DNA of 64,000 bases from Comamonas sp. B21-038. GTDB lineage: Bacteria > Pseudomonadota > Gammaproteobacteria > Burkholderiales > Burkholderiaceae_C. The notes under the pieces are model-generated. The model saw only the letters and a list, made by a program, of their open reading frames with translations. It was not told the DNA's origin and ran no database searches. The translations under genes and the position numbers were made by a program. Every line of letters begins with the position of its first letter. The stretch's first letter is position 1. This document shows, piece after piece, positions 14,025-46,261 of this stretch. The stretch is taken from positions 2,542,001 to 2,606,000 of the forward strand of contig NZ_CP092462.1 in the NCBI RefSeq assembly GCF_022387135.1, read 5' to 3'.

Positions 14025-14774
14025 ATGAACCGCTTTGAAGGAAAGAATATTTTGGTCACCGGTGGCAGCAGCGGCATCGGCGCTGCAGCCGCCATCGCCT
14101 TTGCCCGTGAAGGCGCCCGGGTAGCGATCACCGGCCGCGATACCGACAGCCTGGCCCGCGTCAAGGCCGCGTTGGGCCCTGACGCGCTGGCCCTGGTCAG
14201 CGAAGCCGGTGACGTCTCCGCCCAAGCCGCGCTGGTCGCCGCGTTGCAAACGCAGATGGGCGTGATCGATGGTGTGTTCATCAACGCCGGCGTGGCCAAG
14301 TTTGGCCCGCTGCCGCAGATCGACGAGGCGCTGTGGGACAGCAGCTTTGACACCAATGTCAAAGGCCCCTACTTCCTGATCCAACGCCTCGCTGCGCTGA
14401 TGACGCGAGGCGGCTCCATCGTGCTGAACGGCTCGATCAACGCCCACATCGGCATGGCCAACTCCAGCGTCTACGCGGCCAGCAAGGCCGCACTGATCTC
14501 CCTGGCCAAGACCTTGTCGGCCGAGCTGCTGCCCCAAGGCGTGCGTGTGAATGTCGTGAGCCCCGGCCCCGTCAGCACCCCGCTCTACGGCAAGCTGGGC
14601 CTGGCACCCGACCAGGCCCAGGCCATGGCCGCCGGCATCCAGACGCAGATTCCACTGGGCCGCTTTGGCACGCCAGAAGAAATCGCTGCGACGGTGTTGC
14701 ATATGGTGTCCAAGGAGTCTGGGTTTATTGTGGGGACGGAGATTATTGCGGATGGGGGGATGAGCCAGATGTGA
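14025..14774 (+). CDS. Short-chain dehydrogenase/reductase (classical SDR)
   Basis: 249 residues. The cofactor site is TGGSSGIG (residues 12-19), the NAG region is INAGVAKFG, and the catalytic Ser and YxxxK are in NGSINAH and YAASK. The Arg of ITGRDT after beta 2 suggests NADP(H). It ends in the usual tail GFIVGTEIIADGGMSQM. The start at 14025 follows the operator and matches the family. The substrate is unknown. The DNA of its 3' end recurs twice downstream (see repeats), so this locus has recombined. Confidence 0.9.
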   Translation: MNRFEGKNILVTGGSSGIGAAAAIAFAREGARVAITGRDTDSLARVKAALGPDALALVSEAGDVSAQAALVAALQTQMGVIDGVFINAGVAKFGPLPQIDEALWDSSFDTNVKGPYFLIQRLAALMTRGGSIVLNGSINAHIGMANSSVYAASKAALISLAKTLSAELLPQGVRVNVVSPGPVSTPLYGKLGLAPDQAQAMAAGIQTQIPLGRFGTPEEIAATVLHMVSKESGFIVGTEIIADGGMSQM

Positions 14775-14776
14775 GG
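14708..14776 (+). repeat. Direct repeat copy 1: 3' end of the SDR gene
   Basis: The last 67 bases of the intact SDR gene plus two beyond its stop. They recur at 15926-15994 with two mismatches in 69 bases. The two copies bracket the APH(6)-like gene and a GntR fragment. Confidence 0.9.
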
Positions 14777-14873
14777 GGGTGGGCGCACGTTCTGCCGCAA
14801 ACGCCCCCCGCATGGGCCAGGCGGTGGGGTACAGCGAGTGGAAGCAACTGAGAAGACCGCAGCGATGGGATCG

Positions 14874-15716
14874 TCAAGCCAACGCCTGCCTGGCCAGTTG
14901 TGCAACAGCCAACTCCTCATCGGCCTCGGTTCTGCATCCGTCTTCCAAAAACCAGGCCGCTGACAACGCGGCATGGGCCATCACCCACCGGAGCAGGCGC
15001 TGACGCTCCAGGCCTGCCACATCGACCACCACGGCCAACTGCCGCGCAAAGCGCTCCGGGTCGGTACAGGTTTTCAGGTCCGGGTTGCACAGCACATTCA
15101 CGTAGTCGTAATACCGCTCACCGGTGACGCGCTTGGGGTCTATCGCGAGCCATCCGCGCTGTTCAAAATCGAGGATATTGCTATGGTGTGCATCCCCGTG
15201 CAGGACGACCTGCTCACGCTGATCCTGCAGCAGCTCTTGCGCCACCATTGCGCATTCAGCCATCAGGCCGCCCTGCTGCGCGGCCATCGGCGCCAGCGAT
15301 CGAAAGAAATCCGCCAAAGGCAGCAGGTTTTCAGGCGGCGGCGCAGAAGGCCGGTGGGAATGCAGTTGATGAAGGCTGAGGCAGATACAGGTCGTCGCTG
15401 CGTCATCTTCTCCCTCTAAAGCCATGCGCAGCAAATGCCTGGAGCCCGTGGCCCGCTCCATCAGCAGCGCGCCTGACGGCGGGTCAGAAGCATAAACGCG
15501 AGCCGCACCGGCGCCATCCCACCATTGCAACACTTGTCCGCCGATGCGCTCGTCCAAGTCTCGGCTGATTTTGATCATCGCCGGGAGGCCATTCCACTTC
15601 CCCGTCAGGCTGACAGGCAGAAGATCGCTGGTAGACGTGGCCAAAGGCCTGCCTGCGGGCTGCGCGCCCCAGCGCTGGAGATGGGCTTGGAAGAGATGGA
15701 GGTCGAGGTCTGGCAT
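14874..15716 (-). CDS. APH(6)/hydroxyurea-type antibiotic kinase-like protein
   Basis: 280 residues from the ATG at 15716, the usual size of APH(6) streptomycin phosphotransferases and hydroxyurea kinases; the open frame upstream has no such similarity. The catalytic loop VLHGDAHHSNIL has the HGDxxxxN pattern and LAIDPKRVTGE gives the metal-binding Asp. The N-terminal part carries the nucleotide-site segment (LPAMIKISRD, with the Lys). Such enzymes phosphorylate streptomycin or related compounds in the cytoplasm, but chromosomal homologues often have no resistance role. It runs opposite to its neighbours and lies between two direct repeats, suggesting insertion by recombination. Confidence 0.78.
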   Translation of the reverse strand: MPDLDLHLFQAHLQRWGAQPAGRPLATSTSDLLPVSLTGKWNGLPAMIKISRDLDERIGGQVLQWWDGAGAARVYASDPPSGALLMERATGSRHLLRMALEGEDDAATTCICLSLHQLHSHRPSAPPPENLLPLADFFRSLAPMAAQQGGLMAECAMVAQELLQDQREQVVLHGDAHHSNILDFEQRGWLAIDPKRVTGERYYDYVNVLCNPDLKTCTDPERFARQLAVVVDVAGLERQRLLRWVMAHAALSAAWFLEDGCRTEADEELAVAQLARQALA

Positions 15717-15798
15717 CCACCAGATTGTCGTGGAAGTTCCCAGGCATCCAGCGGCAAGCCCGTTGATAAACATAGGTGCAGGTGCCGCCTGCGCCCGC

Positions 15799-15928
15799 TC
15801 CAGACTGCTGCAGATGATCGAAGACCTGGTGCGCAGCATCGATATACAACTGCGCACCCAGCCATCACATCGCTTCGGCCTCAAGGCGTCACAAGACGAG
15901 CACCGCGCCATCGTGGCAGCCTGCCGTC
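15799..15928 (+). pseudogene. Fragment of a GntR/FadR-type regulator (FCD domain)
   Basis: The plus strand encodes a run ending in QDEHRAIVAACR preceded by MIEDLVRSIDIQLRTQ. This matches the FCD ligand domain of GntR regulators (the EHRAI helix carries a metal-site His). No DNA-binding domain or start is present, and the frame breaks directly into SDR-tail copy 2. About 43 codons remain. It is a deletion scar joining two former genes. Confidence 0.6.
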
Positions 15929-15994
15929 CAAGGAATCTGGGTTTATTGTGGGGACAGAGATTATTGCGGATGGGGGGATGAGCCAGATGTGAGG
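15926..15994 (+). repeat. Direct repeat copy 2: detached SDR 3' end
   Basis: 69 bases with 67 identical to 14708-14776, including the six-G run and the stop. It is not attached to an SDR gene; on its left it abuts the GntR fragment. It is a pseudogene remnant or recombination scar. Confidence 0.9.
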
Positions 15995-16224
15995 TGGGGG
16001 CAGCAGGTGCCGGCGCATGGGCTTAGACCGCTGCGCCGCAGTTACTGCCTGGGTCTTGAAGCTGCAGTTGACGCATTTGCTGCCAGTGACAGCTTTAGGC
16101 TGTGGATGCCAGCGATCGACGCAACTACGCGGCCTGGATCTTTGATGTCAGCCGCTTTGAACACCGGGCTTGCTGACGACCTTCTGAAGCCGACACCGTT
16201 AAGATAAGACCCAAGCACGCAAGA

Positions 16225-16240
16225 CTGTATGAATATACAG
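16225..16240. promoter_or_regulatory. LexA (SOS) box
   Basis: CTGTATGAATATACAG matches the CTGT-N8-ACAG consensus with an AT-only-but-one core, used by LexA of beta- and gammaproteobacteria. It is followed at once by TAAAAT, a plausible -10 box, and lies 40 bases before the start at 16280, the right place to repress that gene. Confidence 0.75.
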
Positions 16241-16279
16241 TAAAATTCTGCCCTTGATAGTTTTCACAAAGGCCCAAAA

Positions 16280-16771
16280 ATGTCTGAAGAGCTCCAACAA
16301 GAAGCTGCCTCCGTCTTCGAAGACTGCCTTTGGCATCACAACGGCTGGGAGGCCCGCGTCATCAAGAATGAAGACGACGATGGCTGGGCGGTTGCCATGA
16401 CCCAGGACGGCCAGGCCGAGCCCAGCCTGGTGGGGCCATGGACGATGGGCCGCGACAAGAAAAATCCCAAGCCGCTTGACGTTTCTGCCTTCAACACCCT
16501 CGTCAAGACTGCCCACGAAGTCATGCGGCGGCATGAGCAGCACCTGGCGGCCCAGTTGCACAAGGACATCCAGATCGTGGTGAATGGATCGCGCGTGACC
16601 GTCTCTCTCGATATTGAGCCCGACGAGGACAATCCCTCCGCGACCCTCACCGCCACCGCAGAGGATGGCAGCGCGTTGGCCAAGGCCCGCGTCAGGCCGG
16701 ACCATAGCCTTAGCCGAGCGTCTGCGCAACGTTGGGCCGAAGCAGGCTATCCGCGTCCCGGCGAGGACTGA
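16280..16771 (+). CDS. Acidic protein of unknown function behind a LexA box
   Basis: 163 residues, soluble, acidic overall, with no signal peptide or membrane helix. A Trp-rich N-terminal part (DCLWHHNGWEARVIKNEDDDGWAV) is followed by a helical middle and a beta-rich segment with repeated Asp/Glu. No family is recognised. The gene stands alone; its stop is followed within 20 bases by the third SDR-tail remnant. The LexA box suggests induction after DNA damage, so a role in SOS-linked stress is a testable guess. Confidence 0.7.
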   Translation: MSEELQQEAASVFEDCLWHHNGWEARVIKNEDDDGWAVAMTQDGQAEPSLVGPWTMGRDKKNPKPLDVSAFNTLVKTAHEVMRRHEQHLAAQLHKDIQIVVNGSRVTVSLDIEPDEDNPSATLTATAEDGSALAKARVRPDHSLSRASAQRWAEAGYPRPGED

Positions 16772-16789
16772 GCTTCAGGCCGCGCTGGC

Positions 16790-16906
16790 CCAATTTGGCA
16801 CGCCGGAAGAAATCGCTGCGACGTTGCTGCGCCTGGCGGCCATGGAGTCCGGGTTCATTGTGGGGACGGCGTTTTTTGCGGATGGGGGATGGGCCAGATG
16901 TGAAGC
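16790..16906 (+). pseudogene. Direct repeat copy 3: diverged SDR 3' end with frameshift
   Basis: It encodes FGTPEEIAATLLRLAA then ESGFIVGT and ADGG, parallel to the SDR at 14025. It is more diverged than copy 2 and reaches further upstream. One G is missing from the G-run that has six G in the other copies, so the frame no longer reaches the normal tail. No start or cofactor domain is present. The rest of 16907-17102 shows no gene. Confidence 0.75.
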
Positions 16907-17102: not shown

Positions 17103-20100
17103 TCAGCGCGCCCGCTCCAGCAACATGCCGATGGCGGTCACCAGCACCTGGATCGTGATAGGCTTTTTCAGGTGAAGGTCGAACCCCGCCTGCAGCGACA
17201 GTTGCTCATCTTCCGGCCGCCCGAAGCCGCTGACCGCGATGGCCGCTGCATTGGCCGTGCCCGGCAAGTGTTTGAGCTCCCTGAGCATATGGCGCCCGTC
17301 CATGACGGGCATCGCAATATCGGAAACGATCACGTCAAAATCGGACTGCTGGGCATGCGCAATGGCTTGGCTGGCATCTCCCGCCTTGGTTACCGCAAAA
17401 CCACTGTCTTCCAGCAGCAGTGATGTCAGCTCCAGCGCATCTTCGTCATCATCGACCAGCAGCACGCGCACGCCCTGCGACGGCAGCCCACCGGGCTTTC
17501 CGGGCTGCGGGCTGCCCCTGGAGCCGACCAGCAAGGGCAGACGCAGGGTAAAACAGGCACCTTGGTCAAGCCCGGAGGAAGTCACACCCACCTCACCGCC
17601 ATGCAGCTCTACAAGACTCTTGACGAGCGCAAGCCCAATCCCCAGCCCTTCGGACTTGCGGGTGTAGGCGCTGCCATCTTCCTGCATGAACATGTCAAAG
17701 ACATACGGGAGAAACTGCGGCGCAATGCCCTTGCCGCTGTCCGCCACCGAGATGGAAGCCCAGCCATCGCTCTCGCCCACCGCCACCTTGACCGTGCCTC
17801 CAGGCGGCGTGAACTTGACTGCGTTGCTCACCAGGTTCCAGATGACTTGCTCTATGCGAATAGGGTCGGCTTCGATGGTGACATCGTCTCCGCTGCAGCT
17901 CACCGAAATCTGCTTGGTGCGTGCATGGACCTGGATCGCTTCAATGATGCGATCAATCAATGGCCGAACGGCGAAGGTGCTTGGCTGCAATGCCAGTTTT
18001 CCGGTGTTCAGGCGCGACAGGTCGAGCAGGTCATCAATGATGCGTGCCTGCGAGCGCACCGTGCGCTTGATGTTTTCAGCGGCCCGGATCAGCGGAGCAG
18101 CGGACTGGATCTGCTCGGCGCGGCTGAGCACCTCGGCGTTCAAGAGCATCAGGTTCAGCGGCCCCTTGAGCTCATGGGACATCACCGCCAGAAACTCGCT
18201 GCCCGCCGCGGTAGCGGATTCCAGGCGCTTGCGCACCTGCTGCTCGGCACGCAGCAGATCGGCCTGCTGCTTCTCCAAGCGTTGCCGCTCAGTCAGATCG
18301 CGCGCAATCTTTGCGAACGCATGGGTGGTGCCTTCAAAAAAGCAGCTGGTGATTCCGCTGCAGTAAAAACGCGAACCATCCTTGCGCAGATGCCAACGCT
18401 CATCCAGAGCGCGGCCCTCTGCAAGGGCCTGGCGCAGCTCTTCTTCGGGTTGACCGGCCTGGCGGTCTTCAGGTGAAAACAGCATGCGGAAATGCTGGTC
18501 CAGCACTTCCAGCTCGGTGTAGCCGAACATCAGCTCGGCGCCTCGGTTCCAGCCCGTGATGGCGCCTGCACTGTCCATGGTGACCATCGCATAGTCACGC
18601 GTGGTCTCTGCCACCATGCGCAGGCGCTCGTCCCGAACGCGTACGGCCTCCTGCGCCTGGCGGCGCTCGGTTACGTCAATGAAGTTGAGCACGGCGCCAT
18701 TGATACGGTTTTCGCTGGTGCGGTAGACCGAGACACGCATCAGGTACCAGCGGCCATCTGCCGAAGCCAGCTCGCGCTCGATCGGGCTCAGGGTGGCGAT
18801 CACATGCTGCACATCTTCGCTCAGCCCCTCATGCTTGAGGCGGTGGGTGAGGTCCAGCAAGGACCGCCCGACATCCGACGACAGAACGCTGAACACCGAG
18901 CTTGCCAGCGGTGTGAATCCTTTGATGCGGAGATCGCGGTCTACGAACAGCGTGGCGATGTTCATCGACGCGATCAGATTGCTCAGATCGTCATTGACCC
19001 GGTCCGCCTCCTCCACCTTGTGCTTGAGCTCAAAGTTGACGGTAGACAGTTCCTCATTGACCGACTGAAGTTCTTCCTTGCTGGTTTCCAGCTCTTCCGT
19101 CGTTGAACGCATTTCCTCGTTCATCGACTGCAGCTCCTCATTCGAGGCGCGCAATGCCTCGTCCGAATAGACCGATTCACCCAATGTCCCCTGCAGCTGC
19201 TGTCCCAGCCGCTGCAGCTCCCTCTCCAGGATATCCACGGCGGGATCGACGCCTTCACTGCCCATACCCAGGTCCTGATGCACCTCTTCGAACCTGATCA
19301 GCAGCTGGCCGCTGGCAGCCATTAGCGAGCCGCCATACACAGACATGCGCACCACAATCGGGCCCACTTCTCCATCGATGGTGACCGGCCGAGCAGCTGC
19401 GCTGCCGCCCTCGCGGGCCACCAGCAACAGCGCTGGACGCAGCGATGGCACGAGCTTGGGAAGCAGGGATTCCATCAGCCCTTGCGAGGGCTGGCCCTCG
19501 GCATAGCGCAAATAATGGCTCGCACCCTTGCTGGTGTGCAGTATCTTGAATTGCGCATCGACAAAAATGCTGACGCCAGCATGGACTTGCAAAAAACGCT
19601 GGTGCAGATCAGCAATCGGAGATGACTGCGATTCCAGCTCAGGCACGGGTGCGGTAGGGATCGAGACCGTGCGCAGCGGCAGCAACTCGCGGCGCTGAGC
19701 CGCCAATGGGGTGGCGCGGTAGATGCGGTGCTTCTTGTCCACCACCGCAAAGTGGTTGGGCATGGCGTCTGCCGTTTCCGCCGAGCCCAAGATGAGCAGC
19801 CCGCCCGGATTCAATGCAAAGTGGAAGACCTTGAGCACCTCAATCTGGATGGAACGGTCCAGGTAGATCAGCAGATTGCGGCATGAAATGATGTCGACCC
19901 GCGAGAAAGGCGCATCGCGCAACACGTTGTGGCGGGTGAACAGGATCTGCTCGCGCAGTGCCTTCTTGACACGCAGGCCGTTGTCAGTGGGCTCCAGATA
20001 CCGACGCAAACGTGTCGCAGAGATATCGTGGGCGGCGCCCGATGGATAGTGGCCCGTACGCGCGCGGGCCAAGGCCCGCTCGTCGATGTCCGATGCGAAT

Positions 20101-21185
20101 ATCTGTGCACTCACGCTCTTCATCTCGGCCACGTGGTCGTTGAGCATCATGGCCACCGAGTAAGCCTCCTCACCGGTCGCGCAACCTACCACCCAAGCTC
20201 TGGCTTGCTCCGGACGCTGCTTGGCAAGCAACTGCCCGTAGAGCTGGTCGAGCATGTCAAAGGCTTCGCGGTCGCGAAAGAAGCTGGTCACGCTGATCAG
20301 CATGTCCTGCAGCAGCGGGCTGGTTTCTTGCGGATGGCTGACCAGGTATTCGCGGTAATGCTGCAGACTGGGCTGACGGGTGATCTGCATCCTTCGCTGC
20401 AGCCGTCGCAGTACCGTCCCCAGCTTGTAGTGGTGAAAATCATTCTGCGTACGTTGCAACAGAATATCGAGAACGTCGCGGATGGCTCTCTGCGCCATCT
20501 CGTCCTCGATCTCTGCAGAAGACGATGCCTCAGGCTGCGGCTCCGGTACCTGGGGCAGCAGCATGGTGCGGGCGTTTTGCCACAAGTCCACCAGCTTCTG
20601 GCCCATCTCGTGCACCGGCAGTATGAAGTCGGCCAGGCCCGTTTCCACAGCCGCATTGGGCATGCTGGAGTGCTCTGCGTCCGAAGGCTTCTGCACCATC
20701 GTGACGCCACCTTCCTGCTTGATCTCGGCAAGGCCCACGGAGCCGTCACTGCCGCCACCCGACAGCACCAGCGCAATCGCCCGCTCACGATGCGCGATGG
20801 CGAGCGTGCGGAAAAACACATCGATGGTCACCAGGGCACCGCGGGGACGCTGGCCCGGCTCGACGACCAGGTGGCTGTCATCCATCTGCAGCTGAGAGCC
20901 CGGTGCTATCACATAGACATGGTCCGCTTCGATGGCAGTCGTCTCTCTGACCTGGACGACCTTCATCGGCGTTGCGTGCTGAAATATCTTCGGCGCGTGG
21001 CTCTCGTGGCTGGACGACAGGTGCAGCACCACCACAAAAGCCATGCCACTGTCGCGCGGTACATGCTCAAGCAGGCGAATGACGGCCGAAATGCCCCCCG
21101 CCGAAGCGCCAATGCCCACCACGGGAAATGGCAGTGTTGACAACTGGATGGTTTTACCCTGCGGGCTGGTCTTGTGTTCGCTCAT
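17103..21185 (-). CDS. CheB-CheR-PAS-histidine kinase-receiver fusion
   Basis: 1360 residues. In order: CheB methylesterase (about 18-195; GASAGG, HLSSSH, SGGGSDGSVG for the Ser-His-Asp triad); CheR methyltransferase (about 215-480; VGCATGEEAYS binds SAM, SCRNLLIYLD follows); a coiled coil (SNEELQSMNEEM...EELSTVN); PAS domains near 740-860 and 870-985; DHp (VMSHELKGPLNL); ATPase (NLVSNAVKF); and a receiver (SDIAMPVMDG). Such proteins couple protein methylation enzymes with kinase signalling and are not part of a classical chemotaxis operon; no other che gene is nearby. AGAGGGA precedes the ATG. Target and input are unknown. Confidence 0.92.
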   Translation of the reverse strand: MSEHKTSPQGKTIQLSTLPFPVVGIGASAGGISAVIRLLEHVPRDSGMAFVVVLHLSSSHESHAPKIFQHATPMKVVQVRETTAIEADHVYVIAPGSQLQMDDSHLVVEPGQRPRGALVTIDVFFRTLAIAHRERAIALVLSGGGSDGSVGLAEIKQEGGVTMVQKPSDAEHSSMPNAAVETGLADFILPVHEMGQKLVDLWQNARTMLLPQVPEPQPEASSSAEIEDEMAQRAIRDVLDILLQRTQNDFHHYKLGTVLRRLQRRMQITRQPSLQHYREYLVSHPQETSPLLQDMLISVTSFFRDREAFDMLDQLYGQLLAKQRPEQARAWVVGCATGEEAYSVAMMLNDHVAEMKSVSAQIFASDIDERALARARTGHYPSGAAHDISATRLRRYLEPTDNGLRVKKALREQILFTRHNVLRDAPFSRVDIISCRNLLIYLDRSIQIEVLKVFHFALNPGGLLILGSAETADAMPNHFAVVDKKHRIYRATPLAAQRRELLPLRTVSIPTAPVPELESQSSPIADLHQRFLQVHAGVSIFVDAQFKILHTSKGASHYLRYAEGQPSQGLMESLLPKLVPSLRPALLLVAREGGSAAARPVTIDGEVGPIVVRMSVYGGSLMAASGQLLIRFEEVHQDLGMGSEGVDPAVDILERELQRLGQQLQGTLGESVYSDEALRASNEELQSMNEEMRSTTEELETSKEELQSVNEELSTVNFELKHKVEEADRVNDDLSNLIASMNIATLFVDRDLRIKGFTPLASSVFSVLSSDVGRSLLDLTHRLKHEGLSEDVQHVIATLSPIERELASADGRWYLMRVSVYRTSENRINGAVLNFIDVTERRQAQEAVRVRDERLRMVAETTRDYAMVTMDSAGAITGWNRGAELMFGYTELEVLDQHFRMLFSPEDRQAGQPEEELRQALAEGRALDERWHLRKDGSRFYCSGITSCFFEGTTHAFAKIARDLTERQRLEKQQADLLRAEQQVRKRLESATAAGSEFLAVMSHELKGPLNLMLLNAEVLSRAEQIQSAAPLIRAAENIKRTVRSQARIIDDLLDLSRLNTGKLALQPSTFAVRPLIDRIIEAIQVHARTKQISVSCSGDDVTIEADPIRIEQVIWNLVSNAVKFTPPGGTVKVAVGESDGWASISVADSGKGIAPQFLPYVFDMFMQEDGSAYTRKSEGLGIGLALVKSLVELHGGEVGVTSSGLDQGACFTLRLPLLVGSRGSPQPGKPGGLPSQGVRVLLVDDDEDALELTSLLLEDSGFAVTKAGDASQAIAHAQQSDFDVIVSDIAMPVMDGRHMLRELKHLPGTANAAAIAVSGFGRPEDEQLSLQAGFDLHLKKPITIQVLVTAIGMLLERAR

Positions 21186-21547
21186 GATGCGTCCCTCTGA
21201 AGCCCGCCCAGGACCGACCTGGTAGTGAGTCCAACGCTAAGCGAGATATTGTTGCCCGAATCGGCGAAGGAACATTATGGGCGATATACCGTTACAGCCC
21301 GCCTGAGATTGCGCCTGAATTGCGTACCTTTCTTGTGCCAAAGCGTCAAGACAGAGGCTTTCGCCATAGTGTCAGGATCGTGCTAGTCACCTACAGCGCG
21401 GCCTGTTTGGCGTGTGCATGGTCGGCAACCACCCCGCCCTGGCCCCTTCGCGCCGATTCACCGTGCATTCAGGCAAAATTCAGCCGATCGAGGCAGCCTG
21501 GGCTCAGGTCTGCCGGTATGCCCACCTTGAAGAATGGAACAACACCA
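21186..21547. other. Divergent intergenic region
   Basis: It separates the CheB-CheR fusion (minus) and the Cys-rich protein (plus). The plus frame is open through most of it, but the text lacks structure and the family-like part begins at 21548. No operator or terminator was recognised. Confidence 0.4.
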
Positions 21548-21988
21548 ATGGCACTGACGAAAAAGGGCGATTTCATGTACGGGACGACGTCCGGCGACAC
21601 CCAGGCCGAGCTGCGCAGCTACAGCGTTGCGAATGGCTATGAGGCCACCCGGTTTGCCTCGTCCAAATGCGATTGCGGCTGCCGTACTTTTGCGCTGCAG
21701 ACCGATGAAGAAGCCGGCGTGGCCATCCGCACCTGCAGCGACTGCGGGCAGGAACACCTGATGGGCGACAGCGCGGACTACCTGGAAGAAGCCACCCCCG
21801 AGGGGCATGCCTGCGTGTGTGAGAACGAGGTGTTCGAGCTAGTGTCCGGCGTCTCCGTGTACAAGGGCACACATGACGTGCGCTGGTACTACATCGCTTG
21901 CCACTGCGTGGAATGCAATCTGGTGGGCGTCTTCGCGGACTGGAAGTGCGAAGCGGGTGACGCGGCGGCCTTTCTCGCCAAGGTATAA
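21548..21988 (+). CDS. Cysteine-rich probable zinc-binding protein, unknown function
   Basis: 146 residues from the ATG at 21548; the frame is open 228 bases further upstream but that part is unlike a protein N-terminus. Four cysteine clusters are present: CDCGC, CSDCGQEH, CVCENE and CHCVEC, enough for two treble-clef or ribbon zinc sites. The spacing resembles rubredoxin-like knuckles, but no family is recognised. It stands alone, convergent with the aldehyde dehydrogenase gene. Confidence 0.65.
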   Translation: MALTKKGDFMYGTTSGDTQAELRSYSVANGYEATRFASSKCDCGCRTFALQTDEEAGVAIRTCSDCGQEHLMGDSADYLEEATPEGHACVCENEVFELVSGVSVYKGTHDVRWYYIACHCVECNLVGVFADWKCEAGDAAAFLAKV

Positions 21989-22162: not shown

Positions 22163-23755
22163 TCAGCCCACCGCCCCCTGGCTGGGCTGCCCATCCACCA
22201 ACCGCCACAGCCCCAGCGCATTGCCATTCTGCAAAGCCACGGGCCGCAGCGCATCGGGCAGGTCCTGGTAGCAGACCGGGCGCAGGAAGCGGTCGATCGC
22301 ACTCGCGCCGACGGAGGTGTACATGGCGTTGGAGGTGGCGGGGAACGGGCCGCCGTGGACCATCGCGTGGCTCACTTCGACGCCGGTGGGGAAGCCATTG
22401 ACGAGGATGCGGCCACACTTGCGCTCCAGCACCGGCAGCAGCGCGCGGGCGCCGTCGTGGTCGCCCTGCTCCAGGTGCAAGGTGGCGGTGAGCTGGCCTT
22501 CCAGGTGCTGGGCGACCTGCAGCAACTCCTCCACGCTGCTGGCTTTGACGACGATGGAAGCCGGGCCAAACATTTCTGACTGCAAGGCCTCGTTCGCCAA
22601 CCAGGTCTGGGCGCTGGTCACATACAGCGCGGCCTGGGCTGCGTTGGCATGGTCAGCGGCCACGCCAGCGGCCAGCTGCTCCACGCCAGCGGCGGCTTGC
22701 AGCTGCGCACGGCCGGCCTCATAGGCCTGGTGGATGCCGGCGGTCAGCATGGTTTGTGCGCCCTTGGCGCGGATAGCGGTGGCTGCCGCGCTGATAAAGG
22801 TGCTGAGCGCAGGGCTGTCGATGGCCAGCACCAGGCCGGGGTTGGTGCAGAACTGCCCTGCCCCCATCGCCAGCGAATCGGCAAAGCCCTGGGCCAGCGC
22901 CTCGGGCCGCGCAGCCAGCGCCTGGGGCAGCAAGAAGACGGGGTTGATGCTGCTCATCTCGGCATAGACGGGGATGGGCTCCGCACGGTGGTTGGCAATG
23001 CGCAATAGCGCCAGGCCACCTTGCCGCGAGCCGGTAAAGCCAACGGCCTTGATCTCCGGGTGGGCCACCAGCGCCTCGCCCAGCCCACGGCCTGCGCCCA
23101 CCAGCAGCGAGAATACGCCTTCGGGCATGCCTTGGCGCTGCGCGGCCTTTTGCACGGCCCGCGCCACCATTTCAGAGGTGCCCAGATGCGCGCTGTGCGC
23201 CTTCACAATCACCGGCGCGCCAGCGGCCAGTGCCGATGCGGTGTCACCCCCAGCCACCGAGAATGCCAGCGGAAAATTGCTGGCACCAAACACTGCCACC
23301 GGGCCCAGCGGGATCTTGGCCAGGCGCAGATCGGCACGCGGCAGCGGCTGGCGATCGGGCTGGGCGGTGTCGATGGTGGCGCGCAGAAAATGCCCGTCGC
23401 GCACCACCTGGGCAAACAGGCGCAACTGGCCCACGGTGCGGCCGCGCTCGCCCGTCAGCCGGGCAATCGGCAGACCGCTTTCCGCATGGGCGCGCTCGAT
23501 CAGCGCATCGCCCAGTTGCAGGATTTCTTCGGCAATCGCCTCCAAAAAGGCCGCGCGCTGCGCCAGCGGCAGATGGCGATACGGGTCGAAGGCAGCAGCG
23601 GCCAGGCGGGCCGCCCGCTCGACCTCGTGGTCGCCACCCAGGCCAAACTCGGGCTCGGCAATGGGGGCGTTCAGTGTGGGGTTGAAGGCGCGTTGGCTGC
23701 CGCTGGTGCCGCGCACTGTGCGGTAGCCAATGACCATGTCTCCAGTGATCTGCAT
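22163..23755 (-). CDS. Aldehyde dehydrogenase, 2-oxoglutarate-semialdehyde type
   Basis: 530 residues, the length of the NADP-type KGSADH branch. [17 protein letters not shown] is the cofactor-site segment of this branch, EMSSINPVF carries the general-base Glu and AGQFCTNPG the nucleophile Cys. The ATG at 23755 has GGAGG just upstream. Family members oxidise 2-oxoglutarate semialdehyde at the end of pentose, hexarate or hydroxyproline routes. It is the last gene of a three-gene minus-strand operon with an MHS transporter and an Fe-alcohol dehydrogenase, suggesting oxidation of an imported hydroxy compound through an aldehyde to an acid. Confidence 0.88.
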
Positions 23756-44620: not shown

Positions 44621-46261
44621 ATGACTGCCCTGCTTTCACTCCAGAACCTCACCGTCGCGCTGCCGCCCGGTGCTGACCGTCCCCATGCGCTCTCCGGCGT
44701 CAACCTGGACATACATCCCGGCGAAGTGCTGTGCGTGGTCGGTGAAAGCGGGTCGGGAAAATCGCTGACGGCAGCGGCCGTGCTGGGCCTGCTGCCCGAG
44801 GGTGTGTCTGTCACCGGCGGCCGCATCGCCTGGAACGGCGAAGACCTGCGCTGCGCGAGCCCCGAGCGCCTGCGCCAGCTGCGCGGCAAGGAAGTGGGCA
44901 CGATCTTCCAGGAGCCGATGACGGCACTCAATCCGCTGCGAACCATTGGCGACCAGATTGCCGAGTTGTTCCGCACCCACACCCCACTCCGCCGCAAGGA
45001 GATCGAAGCGCGCACGGTGGCGTTGCTGGAGTCGGTGCATATTCCGAACCCGGCTGCTGCCGCAAAGGCGTACCCGCACGAGCTGTCCGGCGGCCAGCGC
45101 CAGCGCGCCATGATTGCCATGGCGTTGGCATTGGAACCCCAGCTTCTGATCGCCGATGAGCCCACCACGGCGCTGGATGTGACCACGCAGGCGCAGATCC
45201 TGAAGCTGATCCATGAGCTGCAACGCCGCAAAGGCACCGCCGTGCTGTTCATTACCCACGACTTCGGCGTGGTGGCCGACATTGCCGACCGCGTGGCAGT
45301 GATCCAGAAAGGCAAGCTGGTAGAAAGCGGCCCGGCCGAGCAAGTGCTCAACCATCCGCAGGACCGCTATACGCGTGCCTTGATTGCGGCCGTGCCGCCG
45401 CTGGAGCCAGCGCTGCGCGCGCGTGCCGAAGGACGGCCGGTGGCGTTGTCTGTCAGCCATTTATCCAAGACCTATGGCAAGAAGCGCTGGTTCAAGCGCA
45501 ATGCGCGCATCACGCATGCGGTGAGCGACGTCTCGATCGAACTGGCCGCCGGCAGCACGCTGGGCATCGTGGGTGAAAGTGGATCGGGCAAATCCACATT
45601 GGCGCGCAATGTGCTGGGCCTGCTGGTGCCCGAAGCCGGTGAGATGAAGGTGTTCGGCGAAGCGGTGGACCTGCGCACGCCCTCCGGACGCCGGCACCAC
45701 GCGTCACTGGTGCAGATGGTGTTTCAGGATCCATATGCATCGCTGAACCCGCGCCGCCGCGTGGGCGATATCGTCACCCAAGGGCCCATCGCCCACGGCA
45801 AGACGCATGATGGTGCATGGCGGCATGCGCGCGAATTGTTCGATCTGGTCGGCTTGGCGCCGGATGCGCTGGAGCGTTATCCCCATGAGTTCTCCGGCGG
45901 GCAGCGCCAGCGCGTCGGCCTGGCACGCGCACTGGCGATGGATCCCAAGATTCTGGTGGCCGATGAACCTGTCTCTGCACTCGATGTATCTGTGCAGGCA
46001 CAGGTGCTGGAGCTGCTTGCACGGCTGCAGGACCAGTTGCATCTGTCCATTCTCTTTATCACCCACGATTTGCGCGTTGCTGCGCAGGTCTGCGACCGCA
46101 TCGCAGTGATGAAGTCGGGCCAGATCGTGGAACAGGGTGAGAGCACCCATGTCTTCGGCAAGCCGTCCCATCCCTATACGCAGGCCTTGCTGGCGGCAGT
46201 GCCGGGCCGGCACTGGCATCCCGAGGCAGCCGTCCAGACGAAGATGGCCGAGGTCGCCTGA
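44621..46261 (+). CDS. Fused dual ABC ATPase (DppD-DppF type)
   Basis: 546 residues with two complete ATPase halves. Walker A GESGSGKS occurs in both (near residues 39 and 312), the signature is LSGGQRQR then FSGGQRQRVG, and Walker B LLIADEPTTALD then ILVADEPVSALD. Such fusions (as GsiA) energise family-5 peptide/glutathione-type importers, completing the importer of 38744-42232. It is the last gene of the cluster, 44 bases after the SDR. Confidence 0.92.
   Translation: MTALLSLQNLTVALPPGADRPHALSGVNLDIHPGEVLCVVGESGSGKSLTAAAVLGLLPEGVSVTGGRIAWNGEDLRCASPERLRQLRGKEVGTIFQEPMTALNPLRTIGDQIAELFRTHTPLRRKEIEARTVALLESVHIPNPAAAAKAYPHELSGGQRQRAMIAMALALEPQLLIADEPTTALDVTTQAQILKLIHELQRRKGTAVLFITHDFGVVADIADRVAVIQKGKLVESGPAEQVLNHPQDRYTRALIAAVPPLEPALRARAEGRPVALSVSHLSKTYGKKRWFKRNARITHAVSDVSIELAAGSTLGIVGESGSGKSTLARNVLGLLVPEAGEMKVFGEAVDLRTPSGRRHHASLVQMVFQDPYASLNPRRRVGDIVTQGPIAHGKTHDGAWRHARELFDLVGLAPDALERYPHEFSGGQRQRVGLARALAMDPKILVADEPVSALDVSVQAQVLELLARLQDQLHLSILFITHDLRVAAQVCDRIAVMKSGQIVEQGESTHVFGKPSHPYTQALLAAVPGRHWHPEAAVQTKMAEVA

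Follow-up and report, generated by a model that had tools for sequence, protein, structure and literature searches.

How does the 3′ end of one gene come to stand three times in a short piece of chromosome, with other genes in between? We examined this question in a 64-kb stretch of DNA (the window; all coordinates are counted within it) from a genome taken to be Comamonas (G000, a single contig of 5.18 Mb). The locus lies between a rightward gene of the SDR family, with a LysR gene beside it, and a leftward aldehyde dehydrogenase gene. The SDR gene is intact (14025–14774, plus strand, 249 amino acids; Pfam adh_short_C2, E 8e-57) and its 3′ end is duplicated. The original prediction for this DNA saw foreign-looking genes bracketed by copies of this gene end, and read the pattern as resembling repeated integration or recombination at a conserved gene end. 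We find that the segment directly behind the SDR gene, which carries an APH-type kinase gene, is an insertion with a duplicated gene end, and that it quite probably represents an insertion with long target duplication. It is a real gene-capture scar, not a new mobile element.

The SDR tail copies and the APH insert

Tail copy 1 is the end of the intact gene itself (14708–14774, plus strand); copy 2 follows at 15926–15992 and copy 3 at 16785–16903, both on the same strand. Over 69 columns, 14708–14776 and 15926–15994 differ by 2 mismatches, exactly as predicted, and because the SDR stop ends at 14774, the duplicated 69 bases comprise 67 gene bases plus 2. BLAST reported the copy 1/copy 2 pair as 92 bp at 89% (E 7e-28). 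Copy 3, also foreseen as a diverged and frameshifted copy, is decayed: in its alignment to 14655–14774, which spans 120 columns, 84% of the positions agree (E 2e-29) and one base is deleted. These E-values, from a self-comparison of the window, rule out chance similarity of the copies. Repeats of 40 bp or more with an identity of 78% or more, no further than 8 kb from each other, form three local direct-repeat pairs in the window, all of which stem from the SDR tail. Looking for the same tail beside other insertions in the genome, as had been suggested, gave nothing further: a 135-base tail query has three matches in the window genome, all at this locus. Among 53 Comamonas genomes, the tail was found in 5. 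A recombinant tract across the LysR and SDR genes was considered and rejected, identity in 150-base steps being without a clear break.

We compared the locus with roughly 20 kb of DNA fetched around it in each of the four relatives nearest by SDR protein (G022, G015, G040 and G019; 94–97% protein identity). Such an alignment was the check proposed with the original prediction, and its outcome was clear. In all four relatives, the SDR gene runs straight into sequence equal to the window from 15994 onward, and 14775–15925 is missing. Thus, 14775–15925 is an insertion with a duplicated gene end, and the original SDR tail is copy 2, behind which the native downstream sequence continues. A further piece, 16024–16180, is also missing in G022 and G015. 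At a single site, copies 1 and 2 both carry a G in place of the C found in the intact genes of all four relatives; this one position speaks for a duplication that postdates the split from these relatives.

The insert holds a gene for an APH(6)/hydroxyurea-type kinase (14874–15716, with a putative start at 15716; PF04655, APH_6_hur, E 4e-76), which lies on the minus strand, opposite to the SDR gene, as had been claimed. It ends in a cut gene fragment (15787–15924, plus strand) that stops at the junction. The earlier description of this piece as a GntR fragment held in so far as 46 codons match the FCD domain of that family (PF07729), but the match is weak (E 3e-4; 21.7 bits vs the Pfam cut-off of 24.3). 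With these 46 amino acids as query (E 0.001), no parent gene was found, only the window genome being matched among the 53 Comamonas genomes.

By composition, the APH insert does not look foreign (GC 0.627 vs 0.631 for the window). Near full-length DNA relatives of its kinase gene (74–81%) are present in 10 other Comamonas genomes, 7 of which have no tail match at all; the remaining three, G015, G019 and G040, carry the gene elsewhere. Thus, the insert appears to be new to this place rather than exotic. The idea that relatives have an APH gene at this same place was rejected on these three loci, and no repeats bracket the gene in them (one 66% pair lies to one side in the G015 locus, L151). The outer flanks of the APH relative are the same in L151 and in the G019 locus, L152, but its orientation towards them is reversed between the two.

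Duplicated ends of other genes and older scars

Does the same pattern occur at other genes? In G022, 186 bp of the aldehyde dehydrogenase 3′ end are duplicated (95%) around ~884 bases with a GC content of 0.468, which hold an open reading frame without Pfam match. This gene end is single-copy in G015, G040 and G019, and the native flank is continuous in G015. In G019, 146 bp of the 3′ end of a second SDR gene are duplicated (93%) around an AbiEi/AbiEii toxin-antitoxin pair (L192:14543–17090), at a site that is single-copy and continuous in G000 and G040. The reading frame that runs on in the pushed-away tail had not yet ended where the AbiE insert starts, and the last residues of this second SDR were apparently changed by the insertion. 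In the APH, G022 and G019 cases alike, the insert is missing in relatives and the target is single there, and the direct duplications (67, 186 and 146 bp, respectively) are variable and far longer than the usual target duplications of transposons. Restriction-modification cargo, which is typical of insertions with long target duplication without defining them, was not found; the cargo is the APH_6_hur gene here and the AbiE pair in G019. That genes were acquired by recombination at a gene end is supported by the empty site in four of four relatives and by the like cases at other genes.

Local direct repeats were also surveyed in 60 stretches of 20 kb (420 kb of G000, 400 kb of G040 and 380 kb of G019). 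Forty stretches, scanned with the settings used for the window, gave 11 local direct-repeat pairs, and 20 more, scanned for repeats of at least 60 bases, gave 2. Three gene-end cases emerged: the second SDR of G019 and two weaker ones, which were followed up short of the junction. In the first of these, 135 bp of a LysR 3′ end are repeated in G019 (80%), and each of the five genomes has a different distance from there to the next shared sequence. In the second, a 412-bp repeat of G040 (81%), comprising most of a small open reading frame and its end, surrounds Schlafen-type helicase and MazG-like genes; G000 matches the whole 5 kb at 93%, and G022, G015 and G019 match the first part only. This small open reading frame has relatives elsewhere in three genomes, so that the repeat may possibly come from a paralog. 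After inspection of their open reading frames by eye, the other survey pairs were set aside: L164 (three pairs in one repetitive protein); L187 (short); as paralogs, L178, L184 and L192:244, the L178 pair (1.5 kb) on length alone; and further L185 (tRNA-gene-like, by eye only) and L193 (a long open reading frame, PAAR-like by eye). Also set aside was a perfect 1.57-kb direct repeat of G040 (L247:1–1570/5932–7501), cut by the edge of its stretch.

What, then, is copy 3? It comes after a gene of 163 amino acids (16280–16771) that is present in five of five genomes. Behind the same gene in G040 stands a longer SDR remnant, in the same position, which extends with gaps to the equivalent of 14516; it lacks one base of a G run, as copy 3 does. 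Further on, between an ASCH-domain gene (the domain confirmed by test for G022 only) and the equivalent of 21548–21988, G022 and G019 contain a 28–31-base SDR piece, of which G015 has a more decayed version, as read by eye. Copy 3 would be the scar of an older insertion layer that arose in the same way as the APH insert, and the two to three scars look older with growing distance from the intact SDR. Judging from these decayed copies, repeated gain at this same SDR gene is likely; stacking at one gene end is suggestive, not proven.

How the insert may have arrived

What kind of event leaves such a scar? On the reading as insertion with long target duplication, the region between the convergent SDR and aldehyde dehydrogenase genes would be a variable one that gains genes few at a time. 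Each gain would land at the 3′ end of a flanking gene, either within it or directly behind it, and leave a direct duplication of tens to hundreds of bases; the flanking gene would be kept intact, and its old tail would be pushed away with whatever lay behind it. The APH insert, between copies 1 and 2, would be the youngest layer in the window and copy 3 what is left of an older one. The duplication could arise if one end of the incoming DNA were attached through homology (or copying) and its other end illegitimately, at a point slightly upstream within that gene end; homology-facilitated illegitimate recombination works in this way. This route of one-sided homology is perhaps to be preferred; because no donor was found, we can only infer it. 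Natural DNA uptake may have been the source. ComEC, the one competence gene looked at, has family members in five of five genomes, yet 10 of 14 controls, including E. coli, also score, so that this proves little.

Several observations weigh against this scheme. No donor came to light: among the 53 Comamonas genomes, the APH gene stands beside the tail only in the window genome, and 399 genomes of the family gave none, a weak negative, with the insert alone as query and two candidates scored per genome. None of the 21 survey stretches from G000 itself yielded a gene-end case, the helicase case of this genome having been met via G040. Inserts without duplication occur at the same flanks, in G022 at the second SDR and in G019 before the aldehyde dehydrogenase. 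As for the older layer, copy 3 is missing in G022, G015 and G019. Divergence does not group it with the G040 remnant: 14/69 positions differ between the two, 23/127 between copy 3 and copy 1, and 13/71 between the G040 remnant and G040's own gene. The TGAAGC that follows the stop in both copy 3 and the remnant also follows the intact gene of G040. Given this lack of grouping and the TGAAGC behind the intact gene, copy 3 and the G040 remnant may be one inherited old scar or two separate ones, both being possible.

Could the tails instead be what is left of whole genes? Tandem duplication of the entire SDR gene, followed by insertions and decay that left only the tails, would fit the longer remnant of G040, according to which older copies reached further, and SDR-family genes are numerous in these genomes. 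We nevertheless consider it improbable. The five genomes have no complete or near-complete second copy beside this SDR; full SDR genes at each copy, which the original prediction had tied to simple duplication and decay, were seen in none of them. Moreover, in the youngest event, the loss of ~680 bases would have had to stop precisely at the border of the insert and spare the last 67, which are still 97% alike, and the aldehyde dehydrogenase and second SDR cases would need separate duplications.

A single crossover of the Campbell type, with a circular DNA that already carried the SDR tail beside the APH gene, would yield exactly an intact gene, an insert and a partial tail copy. This is very improbable, however, in view of the plasmid record: all 4334 matching records of PLSDB (of 72,556) are below 60% protein identity, so that no plasmid among them has a close APH relative, and a plasmid origin of the gene was rejected on the same ground. 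The other cases would, in addition, need separate circles, each with a different gene end.

Islands integrate at tRNA genes and restore the gene end. A small element might use the SDR 3′ end as its attachment site and restore the gene, with an integrase supplied in trans. Such site-specific integration would agree with repeats at a gene 3′ end and with layers that seem to pile up on one side, but independent insertions have no fixed attachment core in common: the duplicated lengths vary as given above (older copies measure at least 119 bp) and the target genes differ. The nearest match to a tyrosine integrase (PF00589) lies ~85 kb away (serine recombinases and transposases were not searched genome-wide), and an element driven by an integrase of the tyrosine type was rejected for this reason. 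Pfam found neither transposase nor integrase among the main open reading frames of the inserts. None of 62 SDR loci not recorded as Comamonas, several of them cut short downstream, has a second copy of the last 150 bases of the gene. The varying lengths, the different targets, the start of the AbiE insert and the distance to the integrase all argue against site-specific integration, whose probability we regard as minimal, and for recombination with loosely placed ends. Thus, of the original prediction, recombination at a gene end stands and its repetition at this gene is likely, whereas a special, conserved integration site finds no support in the lengths, the other genes, the 62 SDR loci and the distant integrase.

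Equally remote is an ancestral insert that the four relatives lost when the repeated tails recombined: one survey (excerpt of PMC2884548) explains variable repeat-flanked segments by deletion between direct repeats, but repeated loss would be needed in four of four relatives, copies 1 and 2 are closer to each other (2/69) than the window is to the relatives' intact tails (9–17 in ~130) and share a base private to the window, and the insertion date would only be pushed earlier.

Neighbouring genes, known systems and meaning

The original prediction had also placed a gene with a LexA box between the copies. This box was found, as CTGTATGAATATACAG at 16225–16240 with the pattern CTGT-N8-ACAG, upstream of the next gene in five of five genomes. 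That gene (16280–16771, plus strand) is the one of 163 amino acids that precedes copy 3; it occupies the same place in all five genomes, has no Pfam match and is of uncharacterised function. As the box is kept in all five, the gene is likely SOS-regulated. Copy 3 adjoins a hybrid gene on the minus strand (17103–21185) with CheB, CheR, PAS, histidine kinase and receiver parts, which has no match in the roughly 20 kb around the locus in the four relatives. Beyond it, a 54-base fragment (21382–21435, minus strand; 78%, E 2e-4) resembles the interior of the aldehyde dehydrogenase gene (22613–22666) and sits at another insert border; at 77.8%, the pair falls just under the settings of the repeat scan. 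The uncharacterised gene hyp2 (21548–21988, plus strand) is common to G022, G015 and G019 and is not found in G040. The aldehyde dehydrogenase gene was read over its 3′ part facing the locus (22163–22800, minus strand); its G022 ortholog matches Pfam Aldedh. Elsewhere in the window, 45071–45208 and 45878–46015 form a 139-base direct repeat of 71% identity.

The kind of event is already known and was first described in Helicobacter. Excerpts of later papers (PMC1643837, PMC3031569, PMC4978471, PMC7494987) credit Nobusato et al. (2000) with insertion with long target duplication in Helicobacter pylori, often of restriction-modification genes. As in those excerpts, the genes here are missing in a close relative and are flanked by long, variable direct copies of a target that is single there. 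Unlike the Helicobacter pylori cases so described, the insert here brings an APH gene, and other inserts in the genus bring a toxin-antitoxin pair of type IV and unknown genes; possibly there are several layers at one gene end.

Kirchberger et al. (2017; excerpt of PMC5361080) suggest that the arrays of immunity genes behind type VI secretion system effectors of Vibrio cholerae arise by a process similar to homology-facilitated illegitimate recombination. There, too, successive additions push older genes, and once an effector 3′ end, downstream; in contrast to the SDR locus, where the gene stays intact and the cargo is unrelated, the excerpt has the effector gene replaced and effector-immunity cargo. 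Homology-facilitated illegitimate recombination itself (PMC3240628), with one end homologous and the far end joined illegitimately, would leave a cut gene fragment at the border and end points that vary. This is the route inferred here, where donor, anchor and microhomology lay out of view. Reports of long target duplication or of homology-facilitated illegitimate recombination in Comamonas were absent from the literature searched, a body that most subscription journals lie outside. A far broader claim would be that gene gain in Comamonas recurs and has a direction: genes would be stacked behind core genes at their 3′ ends, the newest next to the intact gene, so as to leave a readable record of time without any mobile element, and the cargo would lean towards resistance, toxin-antitoxin and defence-like genes; this we think doubtful.

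Our results suggest that long target duplication reaches beyond the restriction-modification genes of its original description. The entry of an APH-type kinase gene and of a toxin-antitoxin pair into Comamonas chromosomes fits such a process, neither integrase nor transposase having been seen in the inserts. The decayed copies of gene ends would mark the borders of arrivals and perhaps their order, and gene-end scars of this kind could be of use in finding and dating captures overlooked by island finders.

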